Source: a virus
DNA length: 47,514 nt
IMG/VR virus record: IMGVR_UViG_3300046747_000043
Coordinates: 1 to 47,514 of that record
Direction: 5' to 3' (one strand)
Shown here: positions 13,700-18,581 of the stretch, piece by piece
Layout of the letters: each line of letters begins with the position of its first letter
Position numbering within the stretch: position 1 is the stretch's first letter
Position numbers and translations under genes: made by a program
The notes under the pieces: model-generated
Database searches by the model: none
Seen by the model: only the letters and a program-made list of their open reading frames with translations
What the model was told of the DNA's origin: nothing

Positions 13700-13815
13700 T
13701 AGACATCGCACACAGCAAGCGCAATCAACCACAGGATTTAGTCGCCGGTGTTGTTGTGCCGAACAAACGGCCACCGCTGCCCTTTCACCTTGACCTTATG
13801 GTGTGGGACTTCTCT

Positions 13816-13923
13816 GGAAGCGGCAGGATTCGAACCTGCATGACCGTTTCCGGCCTCGACATTATCTCGATGTTCCCATCGGCGGATTTGATCCCGCTAC
13901 GTCTACCATTTCGCCACACTTCC
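13816..13923 (-). ncRNA. tRNA-Leu-like RNA with aberrant anticodon loop and extra arm
   Basis: A 7-bp acceptor stem (GGAAGTG with CGCTTCC), Leu-type D arm (TGGTAGACG) and a perfect T arm (GCAGG, TTCGAAT, CCTGC) are present. The anticodon region GCGGGATCAAATCCGC leaves a 6-nt loop where a normal CAA loop needs 7. The class II variable arm CGATG-GGAA-CATCG is intact, but about 26 nt with another hairpin (GGCCG-GAAA-CGGTC) lie between it and the T arm. At 108 nt it is too long for a normal tRNA-Leu. It may be a decayed tRNA or a tRNA mimic. Confidence 0.6.
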
Positions 13924-14012
13924 AAAAGAACCATCGCTGGCGGGTTTAACGCCTTGCAGCTACCCAGGGTTTTTATATGCAGGTCATCCCCCCTGTAGCG
14001 CGGTGGCCAATA
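13924..14012 (-). other. Intergenic stretch with a hairpin after the Ro-like gene
   Basis: GCTAC-AGGG can pair with CCCT-GG-GTAGC (about 13958-13998) around a 21-nt loop. No gene and no T tract are seen. It may be a spacer structure between the protein mRNA and the downstream RNAs. Confidence 0.35.
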
Positions 14013-15398
14013 CTAATCCTCTGAAACATCCGGCGCCGCGTTTAGACCCTCGACAGCCTGGATATAGGAAACGATCGATTCGGACCATCCGTCGATGTGG
14101 TGGTATGGACCGTAGCCAATACCGTTCTTGTTCGACGCGACATTCACAAAATAAGCCTTCACATTGGCCGGCGGTCCCTGTACCGATTGGTGGCTCTGCT
14201 CGTCAGTGATAACGATGATCCGGTCCAATGGTTTTGAGTAACAATGCCGGATAGCGTCGCCTGTCATCGTATTTCCAGATGGCGTCGCTTTGATCGCGTC
14301 GATCAACGCAAACCCGCGGCGCGGCGGTACATCGGACGGAAGTTCTGCAAACGATACGATTCGTACCTGTTCGCAAATTTCCCGAAGTAGAACCGCCAGG
14401 GCGCAAGCCGCATCGGCCCGGGTCAACTCAGATTTAGCCGATACCTTCGATGAATACATGGATCCCGAGTTGTCGACGAGTAATACGGTGACGCCCGGAA
14501 GTTTCGGCGAACCCTCAAGGCTCTTGAACATCGCCAATTCAAGAACGTCCTCGAATCCCGGAGCGTATCGCGCCGCCGACAAGAACCGGAACGGCAATAC
14601 CCATTGCGTTTTCATGTCCAGGATCGCGTGGCGAATAATATCGTCTGGAACCTTCACTTCTTGCATATTTCGCAGGTTCCGAAGTAAGGCCAAGGCGCCC
14701 AACTTTTTATCTACAATGAGCCGTTCCCATGATGCCTTTTTGTCATCGCCGGCCGACAGTGCGACCTCCCAGGTGTCCGGCGTCGTAAGCTGTCCGTTCA
14801 CCAGTTTGTGAAACAGAAGGTTTCCTTCGCCCGGAGGCAATTCCATTCCGGCCTTACGTTCTTTACGGGTATAGTGCGCCACACCGTCTTTCGGCTTCGC
14901 GTGGGACAAAAATAGAACGTCCCGAAGCTTCACCGCATTGTCTCGGTTATATTTAGCCAGCTGGTACTCGTTGAAGTTTTGGAACGCAATCGCCAATCCC
15001 TTCTTGACAGAATTGGCCAGCGGCCGCTTTCCGTCCTTCCAGTACAAGGCGAGAAATTCCGTCAATTCGTCGGCTCGTTGAATAATTTTCGGCAGCAACA
15101 ACCGAAGGATGCTCGAGTGCTTCCGCGCCAGGCATACAGCGATCCACAAAGGGACGTGCCGTAGTTTCTGCTTTGTGCGGGCTTCGACCGCAATGGAACC
15201 GATCAGGTCGTCGTCAGGTATTTCCTGGACCAGATCGTTAATGCGCTGCGCAATATCCTGTCCGTCCTCGTAGAACTCGCGCTCCCAAAGTAGGCAGGAC
15301 ATGACCGACCGGCGTAACTGCGCTTCCGCGCCGACCCGCATGGCCTTCGCACCTTCGTGCGTGTAGATCGATGGTGACTTTTTGTTGATTGTCGCCAT
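14013..15398 (-). CDS. rsr: Ro60/Rsr-family TROVE and vWA domain protein
   Basis: A 461-aa protein with the layout of Ro60 orthologues. The first ~290 residues are helical repeats of the TROVE type (Y42-F43 region through AARYAPGFEDVL at 276-286). Residues ~300-455 form a von Willebrand A domain with an intact MIDAS: DNSGSM (309-314), a Thr in GNTMTGDA (376-382) and Asp399 in ITDEQSH. Ro proteins are ring-shaped; they hold misfolded RNAs and bind Y RNAs on the outer face, and in bacteria the Y RNA can tether the ring to PNPase. Five Y-like RNAs lie directly upstream in the same unit. The SD and start codon fall in a hairpin. Confidence 0.9.
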   Translation of the reverse strand: MATINKKSPSIYTHEGAKAMRVGAEAQLRRSVMSCLLWEREFYEDGQDIAQRINDLVQEIPDDDLIGSIAVEARTKQKLRHVPLWIAVCLARKHSSILRLLLPKIIQRADELTEFLALYWKDGKRPLANSVKKGLAIAFQNFNEYQLAKYNRDNAVKLRDVLFLSHAKPKDGVAHYTRKERKAGMELPPGEGNLLFHKLVNGQLTTPDTWEVALSAGDDKKASWERLIVDKKLGALALLRNLRNMQEVKVPDDIIRHAILDMKTQWVLPFRFLSAARYAPGFEDVLELAMFKSLEGSPKLPGVTVLLVDNSGSMYSSKVSAKSELTRADAACALAVLLREICEQVRIVSFAELPSDVPPRRGFALIDAIKATPSGNTMTGDAIRHCYSKPLDRIIVITDEQSHQSVQGPPANVKAYFVNVASNKNGIGYGPYHHIDGWSESIVSYIQAVEGLNAAPDVSED

Positions 15399-15413
15399 GG
15401 AGAACCTCCATCA
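15394..15413 (-). promoter_or_regulatory. Hairpin sequestering the ribosome site and start of the Ro-like gene
   Basis: ATGGAG and CTCCAT form a perfect 6-bp stem with a GTT loop. The first strand contains the GGAG ribosome site and the second ends with AT of the start codon. Such a structure would lower translation until it is opened, for example by a protein, by ribosomes or by folding of the upstream RNA. Confidence 0.6.
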
Positions 15414-15418
15414 GAAAT

Positions 15419-15555
15419 AAAGGGGAATATGCGACGTAGGGCTTTTTGGTGCGGGAGCTCTAACCAACTGAGCTACGCCACGCTTTCGCGCAACGGTCGG
15501 AATCGAACCGACGACATCCTGCTTGATTGAAGTAACCTACGTCTGCGCCACCTTT
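15419..15555 (-). ncRNA. Y RNA of YrlA type with permuted tRNA-like module
   Basis: Order on the minus strand: lower stem AAAGG, TGGCGCA, upper stem GACGTAGG (15536-15543), TTACTTC; then a T arm (15496-15512; GTCGG, TTCGATT, CCGAC), an acceptor-like 8-bp stem capped by GAAA (15476-15495), a D arm (15457-15473); then upper stem CCTACGTC (15433-15440), ATATTCC and lower stem CCTTT. The T arm, closed acceptor and D arm order is that of the tRNA-like domain of bacterial YrlA RNAs. It ends about 20 nt before the start of the Ro-like gene. Confidence 0.85.
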
Positions 15556-15571
15556 TTTAATAAAAACATAG

Positions 15572-15627
15572 CCGGGAATTATCGATGTGGTTTTCTTTGC
15601 TTGATGTAACCCACATCTTCGCCACGG
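15572..15627 (-). ncRNA. Minimal Y-like RNA, unit 4
   Basis: Lower stem CCG/CGG, internal loop TGGCGAA opposite ATAATTCC, upper stem GATGTGG (15611-15617) with CCACATC (15584-15590), then TTACATC after the 5' strand and an A-rich loop. It begins about six bases after the tRNA-Lys, so tRNA 3' processing may release it. There is no tRNA-like module. Confidence 0.75.
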
Positions 15628-15631
15628 ACAC

Positions 15632-15704
15632 AGAGCGCTAAGGGATTTGAACCCCTGACCTGCGGATTAAAAATCCGCCGTTCTACCAACTGAACTAAGC
15701 GCCC
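15632..15704 (-). tRNA. tRNA-Lys(TTT)
   Basis: A regular 73-nt tRNA: acceptor GGGCGCT with AGCGCTC (one G-U), D arm GTTCAGTTGGTAGAAC, anticodon arm GCGGA-TTTTTAA-TCCGC giving anticodon TTT, 5-nt variable loop, T arm AGGGG-TTCAAAT-CCCTT. The CCA end is not encoded and the discriminator base is T, unusual for lysine tRNAs. It sits between two Y-like RNAs. Confidence 0.95.
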
Positions 15705-15712
15705 TACAAACA

Positions 15713-15773
15713 ACCGGGAATTAACGGTTAAGGGTGTATTTCCCCAAGAAGTATCCCTAACCAGCGCCACGGT
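15713..15773 (-). ncRNA. Minimal Y-like RNA, unit 3
   Basis: Lower stem ACCG/CGGT, internal loop TGGCGCT opposite TTAATTCC, upper stem GGTTAGGG with CCCTTAACC (one bulge), ATACTTC after the 5' strand, 13-nt loop. It ends eight bases before the tRNA-Lys, whose 5' processing would set its 3' end. Confidence 0.75.
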
Positions 15774-15790
15774 ATCAAAACTAAAAAACA

Positions 15791-15856
15791 TCGGGGAATA
15801 AGCAGAAACGGTTTTTTTTCATTGATGTTAGAAGTAACCGTTTCCAACGCCACCGA
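15791..15856 (-). ncRNA. Minimal Y-like RNA, unit 2
   Basis: Lower stem TCGG (15853-15856) with CCGA (15791-15794), internal loop TGGCGTT opposite TTATTCC, upper stem GAAACGG (15838-15844) with CCGTTTC (15805-15811), extendable by two pairs. TTACTTC follows the 5' strand and the loop ends in a run of eight A residues. It lies four bases after the acceptor of the chimeric RNA. Confidence 0.75.
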
Positions 15857-15860
15857 ACCT

Positions 15861-15984
15861 GAAGGATGCCGGATTCGAACCGGCGCCTCTCAATTAACAG
15901 TTGAAGTAACCAAACTCTGCGCCACGCCGAAGCGGGAAAAATCAAATCTGGCTAACAGCGCTCTAACCGCTAAGCTAATCCTTC
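15861..15984 (-). ncRNA. Chimeric tRNA/Y RNA: Y helix replaces the anticodon arm
   Basis: The outer frame is a tRNA: perfect 7-bp acceptor (GAAGGAT with ATCCTTC), D arm (15960-15975) and perfect T arm (15868-15884). Between D and T arms sits a Y element in permuted order: upper 3' strand CCAGATTT (15944-15951), ATTTTTCC, lower stem CGC/GCG capped by TTCG (15925-15934), TGGCGCA, upper 5' strand GAGTTTGG (15910-15917; three G-U pairs with the 3' strand), TTACTTC. It is the circular permutation of the RNA at 15419-15555. A search program may call it an odd tRNA-Asn (GTT at 15895-15901). Confidence 0.75.
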
Positions 15985-15992
15985 ACGGCAAC

Positions 15993-16019
15993 ATTACTAC
16001 CTTTTATACTACTTGTAAA
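15993..16019 (-). promoter_or_regulatory. Conserved promoter element copy 3 (upstream of the RNA locus)
   Basis: TTTACA (16014-16019) is followed after 17 nt by TAATGT within GGTAGTAATGTTG. The 19-mer TAGTATAAAAGGTAGTAAT is identical to the element before the acb2-like gene. It overlaps the last codons of the 16004-16360 gene and would start a transcript a few bases before the chimeric tRNA/Y RNA. Confidence 0.65.
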
Positions 16020-17849: not shown

Positions 17850-18581
17850 CTATTGGCCGGTCCACATATCGTTGACGAGCTTCCGAAACACCGGATACGG
17901 CATATAGCAATATCCTTGGTCGCCCCAGCCGGTTCCCCAGCTGTTGCGGATGATCACCCAGCCGTGCGGGTCCGAATATCCCACCGCGAGGACCGCATGA
18001 CCGCCAAGGCGTCGCTCACCTCGCTTCGGCATAGGGATAACTCCCGTCCGCGCCGCCACATCACCCTCGAAGGACTCAAAGACGTAAAAACCCACCACAA
18101 CCGGCTTACCTTGCGCTAAGGCCGTTTTTAAGGCTGATAGGCAGGTGACGCGATGGTACTCACTGATGCGATGTTTCGCGGCGTCGACCTGAGCCGTTAC
18201 AGACGGCGTTTTCTTGAATTCCACTATGTTATATGGCGCTTCTGATTCCGGGCAGACACCTTGCTTTTGTAGCACCTTCATGCCGTCGCGTATCTGAGCC
18301 CCAGCATCGTAGTTCACAGTTCCTTCGAGGACGCGCTCGTAGTAGTAGAGGAACAGGCGTGACAAGGACTCGGATTTGCCAGTTGCCGATAATTCCAGAT
18401 ATTCCCGCAATCCCGAGGCGATGGCGTTCGCGGTGCAGCTCCCGAGTTGTCCCTGGTCGACGACAGGGCTGCATTTCGATCGTAGGTCGATCGCGGCCGG
18501 AAGTTTGGTGAACAACGGCTTGTTCGGGTGTTTGAGGTCGCGGAAGTCAATCGCGTCCTTGATGTGTCCGTAGGTTCTCAT
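17850..18581 (-). CDS. Papain-like (C1A) cysteine peptidase
   Basis: A 243-aa enzyme with the C1 peptidase layout: DQGQLGSCTA gives the oxyanion Gln43 and catalytic Cys49, LGGHAVLAVGY gives His195, and IIRNSWGTGWGDQGYCYMP gives Asn213 and the conserved Trp/Gly block. There is no signal peptide and no long pro-region. It overlaps the transglycosylase stop (ATGA) and is the last gene of the late operon. C1 peptidases are uncommon in phages; possible roles are cleaving host proteins during lysis or processing virion proteins, neither shown here. Confidence 0.9.
   Translation of the reverse strand: MRTYGHIKDAIDFRDLKHPNKPLFTKLPAAIDLRSKCSPVVDQGQLGSCTANAIASGLREYLELSATGKSESLSRLFLYYYERVLEGTVNYDAGAQIRDGMKVLQKQGVCPESEAPYNIVEFKKTPSVTAQVDAAKHRISEYHRVTCLSALKTALAQGKPVVVGFYVFESFEGDVAARTGVIPMPKRGERRLGGHAVLAVGYSDPHGWVIIRNSWGTGWGDQGYCYMPYPVFRKLVNDMWTGQ

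Follow-up and report, generated by a model that had tools for sequence, protein, structure and literature searches.

Chen and colleagues (RNA 2014) reportedly located likely Y RNAs near the Ro60 genes of over 250 bacteria and phages, and a phage Ro60 protein with several Y RNAs is already a known kind of system. In bacteria, the YrlA RNA is known to be laid out like a circularly permuted tRNA (PMC11472068, PMC8394870). In Deinococcus radiodurans, a Y RNA tethers Rsr, a Ro60-type protein, to the nuclease PNPase, with a role in RNA decay (PMC7790460, PMC8394870). An earlier study of Listeria phage CKA15 proposed that putative Y RNAs precede its Rsr-like gene (PMC12282133). Here, we analyzed the rsr locus of a tailed phage, which lies on a 47.5-kb contig of IMG/VR (record IMGVR_UViG_3300046747_000043, positions 1 to 47,514; hereafter the window) with terminase, portal, tail and lysis genes. 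Directly upstream of rsr, we identified five structured RNAs, U1–U5. U5 follows the permuted plan of YrlA, and U1 is predicted to be a tRNA in its normal order that carries the Ro60-binding stem as an inserted arm. The unpermuted variant next to a permuted one is the new part of this locus and is apparently undescribed; we found no description of the U1 form in the literature searched, which left out key Y RNA papers.

Results

The rsr gene (14013..15398, minus strand) encodes a complete Ro60-type protein of 461 amino acids with TROVE and vWA domains. Its TROVE domain, a HEAT-repeat ring, was recognized by Pfam TROVE (E 5.7e-15), and the protein matched phrog_850 with an E-value of 1.1e-42. 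The metal site of the vWA domain, DxSxS, reads DNSGSM at residues 309–314, with D309, S311 and S313 invariant in alignments; Pfam VWA_2 scored 26.6 bits, slightly below its cut-off of 27. The AlphaFold2 model reached a predicted local distance difference test (pLDDT) score of 84.7, and its top Foldseek matches were 9kop/9l5y, the Ro60 of Thermus phage phiLo, with further matches to 1yvp (Xenopus Ro with RNA) and 2nvo (D. radiodurans Rsr).

The RNA cluster occupies 15984–15419 on the strand of rsr, at most 590 nucleotides upstream of its start codon, in the transcription order U1, U2, U3, tRNA-Lys, U4, U5. Common to U1–U5 is a Ro stem that consists of a lower helix, one bulged U, two GG/CC pairs, an asymmetric internal loop (approximately CGNA versus GNNNRTT) and an upper helix of 7–8 pairs, followed by UUAC(U/A)UC or AUACUUC. 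The bulged U has an unpaired probability of 0.88–0.99 in the five RNAs, and the flanking GG is paired. The Ro60 site of Y RNAs has the same layout, with C as the bulged base (PMC4030889). The short Y-like RNAs U2 (15791..15856), U3 (15713..15773) and U4 (15572..15627), all on the minus strand, contain little beyond the Ro stem, and U1 and U5 also hold a tRNA module. U2–U5 form a basal stem from their own 5′ and 3′ ends; U1 does not, as its ends are those of a tRNA acceptor stem.

We searched for these RNAs with two covariance models, neither of which included any sequence from the window; their calibration was short and the E-values are therefore rough. Model R2, built from nine short Y-like stems of other loci, recovered U2 (E 2.1e-17), U3 (E 5e-16) and U4 (E 5e-10). 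Model R1, built from six hybrid RNAs with the variable linkers and some pairs of the longer lower stems omitted, recovered U1 (66.4 bits, E 8.7e-17). In 82 viral rsr loci, R2 found 160 stems, all on the rsr strand and at least six of them in one locus. When 189 sequences were scanned for the motif, open stems numbered 254 on the rsr strand, nine on the reverse strand and none in shuffled sequences at equal score. Given that U1–U4 are recovered by models that exclude the window, and given the strand and shuffle contrast in the motif scan, a chance origin of the predicted stems of U1–U4 and of their motif is excluded. Among 204 distinct units, the upper helix paired in 98% with its own strands versus 56% with strands swapped, the former figure being biased upwards since the units had been chosen by pairing. 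The pairs beside the bulge covary as well, with GG/CC seen 197 times and AG/CT 30 times. Rfam and ARAGORN, both standard annotation tools, miss most of these RNAs.

These results bear on a preliminary description of the window, made from its letters, which had proposed a phage Ro60/Rsr protein with its own cluster of five Y-like RNAs. The complete TROVE plus vWA protein is borne out by the domain matches and the DNSGSM site, and its pairing with Y-like RNAs by the fold match and the covariance models. All five stem pairs that it named are present, and since they lie on the minus strand, the RNAs precede rsr. It had taken covariation as evidence of structure, with which the pairs beside the bulge and those of the U1-type RNAs described below agree. 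It also put forward, as a hypothesis, that the phage could act on host RNA decay or tRNA surveillance. The single architecture that it ascribed to the five RNAs holds for the common Ro stem and fails for the topology, as the Ro stem of U1 is closed outwardly by UUCG and both ends of the RNA lie in a tRNA acceptor stem. Five RNAs in one locus, which it considered exceptional, are not, since arrays of three to six are common among phage loci.

U1 (15861..15984, minus strand) is predicted to form a full tRNA cloverleaf whose arms keep their normal order and whose acceptor ends are open. It starts with the acceptor 5′ strand GAAGGAT and the D arm, continues through the Ro 3′ strand, the hairpin CGC-UUCG-GCG and the Ro 5′ strand, and proceeds to the anticodon arm, the T arm and the acceptor 3′ strand AUCCUUC, with all seven acceptor pairs intact. 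The anticodon arm reads UUCAA-CUGUUAA-UUGAG with the anticodon GUU, and the T arm reads GCCGG-TTCGAAT-CCGGC (15868..15884, minus strand). Besides the acceptor, D, anticodon and T arms, U1 holds the hallmark positions U8, A14, G18G19 and U33 and the T-loop. The Ro stem, CCAGATTT..CGC-TTCG-GCG-TGGCG..GAGTTTGG (15910..15951, minus strand), is a closed internal arm supported by sequence, predicted pairing and covariation; with it, approximately 54 nucleotides interrupt the cloverleaf between the D and anticodon arms, and ARAGORN misses U1.

In U5 (15419..15555, minus strand), the Ro stem is open and encloses the tRNA module. The Ro 5′ strand is followed by the T arm (15512–15496), the acceptor stem with a GAAA cap (15495–15476), the D arm (15473–15457) and the Ro 3′ strand. 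U5 was found by the motif scan and is a weak match to the YrlA model of Rfam (36 bits, E 1.5e-5; cut-off 69); at the Rfam gathering cut-off, YrlA was found in none of 17 relative loci. Judged by the order of their predicted arms, U1 and U5 are circular permutants of each other. The preliminary description mentioned neither the tRNA modules of U1 and U5 nor the inside-out hybrid beside the permuted one, and the region it covered also takes in tRNA-Lys(UUU) and a tRNA-Leu-like gene.

Many tRNA-type units of this Rsr clade retain an anticodon arm. Of the 98 such units, 51 have an anticodon-type stem that starts at the UUC of UUACUUC, directly after UUAC, and carries a seven-base loop, in which U33 is present in 43/51 and a purine at position 37 in 45/51. 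The anticodon stems paired in 55% with their own strands versus 41% with strands swapped. As every stem starts with the constant UUC, which lets swapped strands pair often, the case for an anticodon arm is better made by the loop positions. The anticodons of tRNA-type units are of 21 kinds, of which GUU is the commonest (10/43). The published description of YrlA includes only D, T and acceptor arms (PMC8394870), and units that keep the anticodon arm are therefore closer to whole tRNAs.

We next consider the recurrence of the U1 form. Pattern searches, a tRNA-aware scan and R1 together gave 14 U1-type RNAs at E <= 4.5e-12 from 11 viral genomes, including crAss001 and cr106_1. Three related RNAs stand outside the 14: a second crAss001 RNA (L018, 4879–5016) and two in the contig of L200, one of them with a longer cap. 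That 228-kb viral contig holds two hybrid RNAs upstream of rsr (L201, 218–346 and 363–508) and one downstream, and an ordinary tRNA-Asn-like gene adjoins. In the alignment of the 14 U1-type RNAs, which was fitted to the model and thus favours the structure, and in which the D stem is partly misaligned (74% paired), both partners vary in 20 of the 27 pairs; this amounts to 103 cells versus 31 in shuffled alignments and 10–23 with the partner slid. Among the 20 are all seven acceptor pairs, seven of the eight in the upper Ro helix and all three in the lower helix.

The caps that close the Ro stem and the encoded 3′ ends were scored in a slightly different set of 14 (second crAss001 RNA included, second L197 RNA excluded). 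The caps measure 1–6 nucleotides and are GNRA or UUCG in 7/14 (chance 1.3e-6), and CCA is encoded right after the discriminator in four (L001, L008, L043 and L061; chance 5e-5), of which L001 has a degenerate acceptor stem.

By inspection, the U1 form occurs in 7 of 95 viral loci and in none of 80 bacterial loci. In the Rsr tree, in which only five carriers are labelled, the carriers are scattered, and a single origin is still compatible with their positions. A TROVE gene was present in all eight contigs recovered by the RNA pattern of D arm and Ro stem alone; not all eight hold a convincing U1-type RNA, as L189 and L193–L196 resemble neighbouring permuted units. We excluded L042, L141, L156, L186, L189 and L193–L196 as U1-type RNAs, since these candidates are of the kind formed by halves of neighbouring permuted units. 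In the bacterial loci (L109–L188; Acidobacterial, Bradyrhizobium and other contigs), the same Y-like RNA family with anticodon arms lies beside rsr, and no convincing unpermuted form was seen.

Several related loci contain further features of note. Two annotated tRNAs, a tRNA-Thr of Xanthomonas phage 10KY502B (L014, 2792–2859) and a tRNA-Gln of CcrColossus (L015, 2173–2240), appear to be misreadings of the 5′ halves of the Y-like units that they overlap. In Rhizobium phage RHph_TM39 (L019, 1730–2900), several divergent permuted tRNA–Y units lie upstream of rsr, with TTGCG replacing TGGYG. In Brevundimonas phage Papperlapapp (L016, 6793–7048), rsr is followed at a distance of a few kb by a permuted tmRNA (Rfam RF04321, 60 bits).

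Within the window, a tRNA-Lys gene with the anticodon UUU (15631..15705, minus strand; ARAGORN, Rfam tRNA 71.8 bits) lies between U3 and U4. Downstream of rsr, a tRNA-Leu-like gene (13815..13923, minus strand; Rfam tRNA 38.7 bits) was missed by ARAGORN and has a second hairpin, GGCCG-GAAA-CGGTC, between its variable arm and T arm; we rejected it as a Y RNA because the Ro-stem motif is absent. A gene for a papain-family cysteine protease (17850–18581, minus strand; Pfam Peptidase_C1 1.3e-19) adjoins SLT transglycosylase and amidase genes and is unusual in a phage lysis region. Megablast found no close relative of the right half of the window among 50,697 phage records.

Discussion

We consider it fairly probable that this locus is a phage-encoded Ro60 ribonucleoprotein cassette. 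The parts of the cassette, as read from the sequence, are identified with high confidence, and binding of the U1–U5 Ro stems by Rsr is a prediction that we regard as very likely. The adaptor role of the RNAs is put forward more tentatively. U1–U5 would derive from one transcript upstream of rsr and then be trimmed, U1 by the enzymes that process tRNA ends. Each Ro stem would be bound by Rsr, so that the tRNA modules of U1 and U5 could project from the Rsr ring and bind a partner that recognizes tRNA. Through such a partner, the phage would most likely steer an RNA-processing enzyme of the infected host, for example PNPase, and could in this way direct the decay of structured host RNA with a device of the D. 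radiodurans type. The short RNAs U2–U4 may stabilize or gate Rsr.

Several observations weigh against this adaptor cassette. There is no direct link between the Rsr of the window and PNPase, no RtcB was found in the window, and no clear sigma-70 promoter or terminator was found for the RNA cluster. Furthermore, the Rfam YrlA score of U5 (36 bits) lies well below the gathering cut-off of 69, and U5 is without a canonical anticodon arm.

The same RNAs could instead act against host defences. In this scenario, tRNA modules stabilized by Rsr would serve as baits or competitive inhibitors of host anticodon nucleases or other defences that attack tRNA, and the tRNA-Lys would replace the cut tRNA. 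Complete anticodon arms, needless for tethering in decay, are often kept (51/98 units), a tRNA-Lys(UUU) lies within the RNA cluster, and YrlA has already been proposed as a competitive inhibitor of an anticodon nuclease (PMC7790460). However, the 21 kinds of anticodon point to no single nuclease and U5 offers no canonical anticodon arm. Nor was a nuclease or RNA-repair partner found: RtcB is missing from the window, and the search for T4 RNA ligase was uninformative, its control being unmatched. We regard a decoy function as rather unlikely. In crAss001, the TROVE gene begins to be transcribed in the first 10 minutes of infection (PMC10136315), and this early expression fits the adaptor role and the decoy role alike.

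U1 itself might be a tRNA-Asn gene, functional now or until recently, with a Ro-stem insert, in which case one RNA would both decode and bind Rsr. Every cloverleaf arm and the invariant tRNA positions are present, the anticodon loop is CTGTTAA, and an encoded CCA directly follows the discriminator in four of the 14 relatives. U1, however, has A73 and does not encode CCA, and in some relatives U33 or a clear anticodon arm is missing. Unless removed, the Ro stem, located at position 26/27, would probably also clash with the tRNA core and with passage through the ribosome, and we consider a decoding U1 improbable. It is conceivable, though rather unlikely, that U1-type RNAs are a separate class: normal-order tRNAs with processed 3′ ends, sometimes with encoded CCA, that carry a Ro60-binding arm. 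Such an RNA would be a chargeable or ribosome-visible tRNA tethered to the phage Ro60 ring, and it may be the missing link from tRNA to YrlA by circular permutation.

False joins do exist among tandem permuted units (L141, L186, L195 and L196), but we rejected U1 as two halves of neighbouring units, and hold it very improbable that the closed form is a misjoin of two successive permuted units, the first contributing its 3′ half and the second its 5′ half, or a decayed tRNA, since upstream of U1 there is neither a T arm nor a Ro 5′ strand, the caps are short and in half of the RNAs GNRA or UUCG, the acceptor and Ro-stem pairs covary, and the closed form recurs in 11 viruses.

YrlA resembles a tRNA that has been circularly permuted and enclosed by a Ro-binding stem, and the presence of permuted and unpermuted forms in one locus makes its origin testable. 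The unpermuted form recurs in viruses that are not related to one another, among them crAss001, a cultured phage, and the locus supplies candidate Y RNAs with tRNA-type ends. Compared with the Rsr–Y RNA–PNPase complex of D. radiodurans (RYPER), the proposed cassette has a Ro60-type protein of the same fold (2nvo) that would work with a Y RNA; RYPER is a bacterial stress system, and its partnership with PNPase is known there and for no phage Rsr here. Thermus phage phiLo (9l5y/9kop), crAss001, CcrColossus and Listeria phage CKA15 likewise have Ro60-type genes. Two crAss001 RNAs are U1-type in the present analysis. The closest RNA, YrlA (RF02553; Salmonella YrlA, PDB 6CU1), is encoded beside rsr and combines a basal Ro stem with permuted T, acceptor and D arms (PMC8394870, PMC11472068), a plan that U5 follows. 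In contrast to YrlA, the stem of the phage family has its own consensus, TGGYG / TTCC and then UUACUUC, many of its relatives keep the anticodon arm, and U1 is unpermuted.

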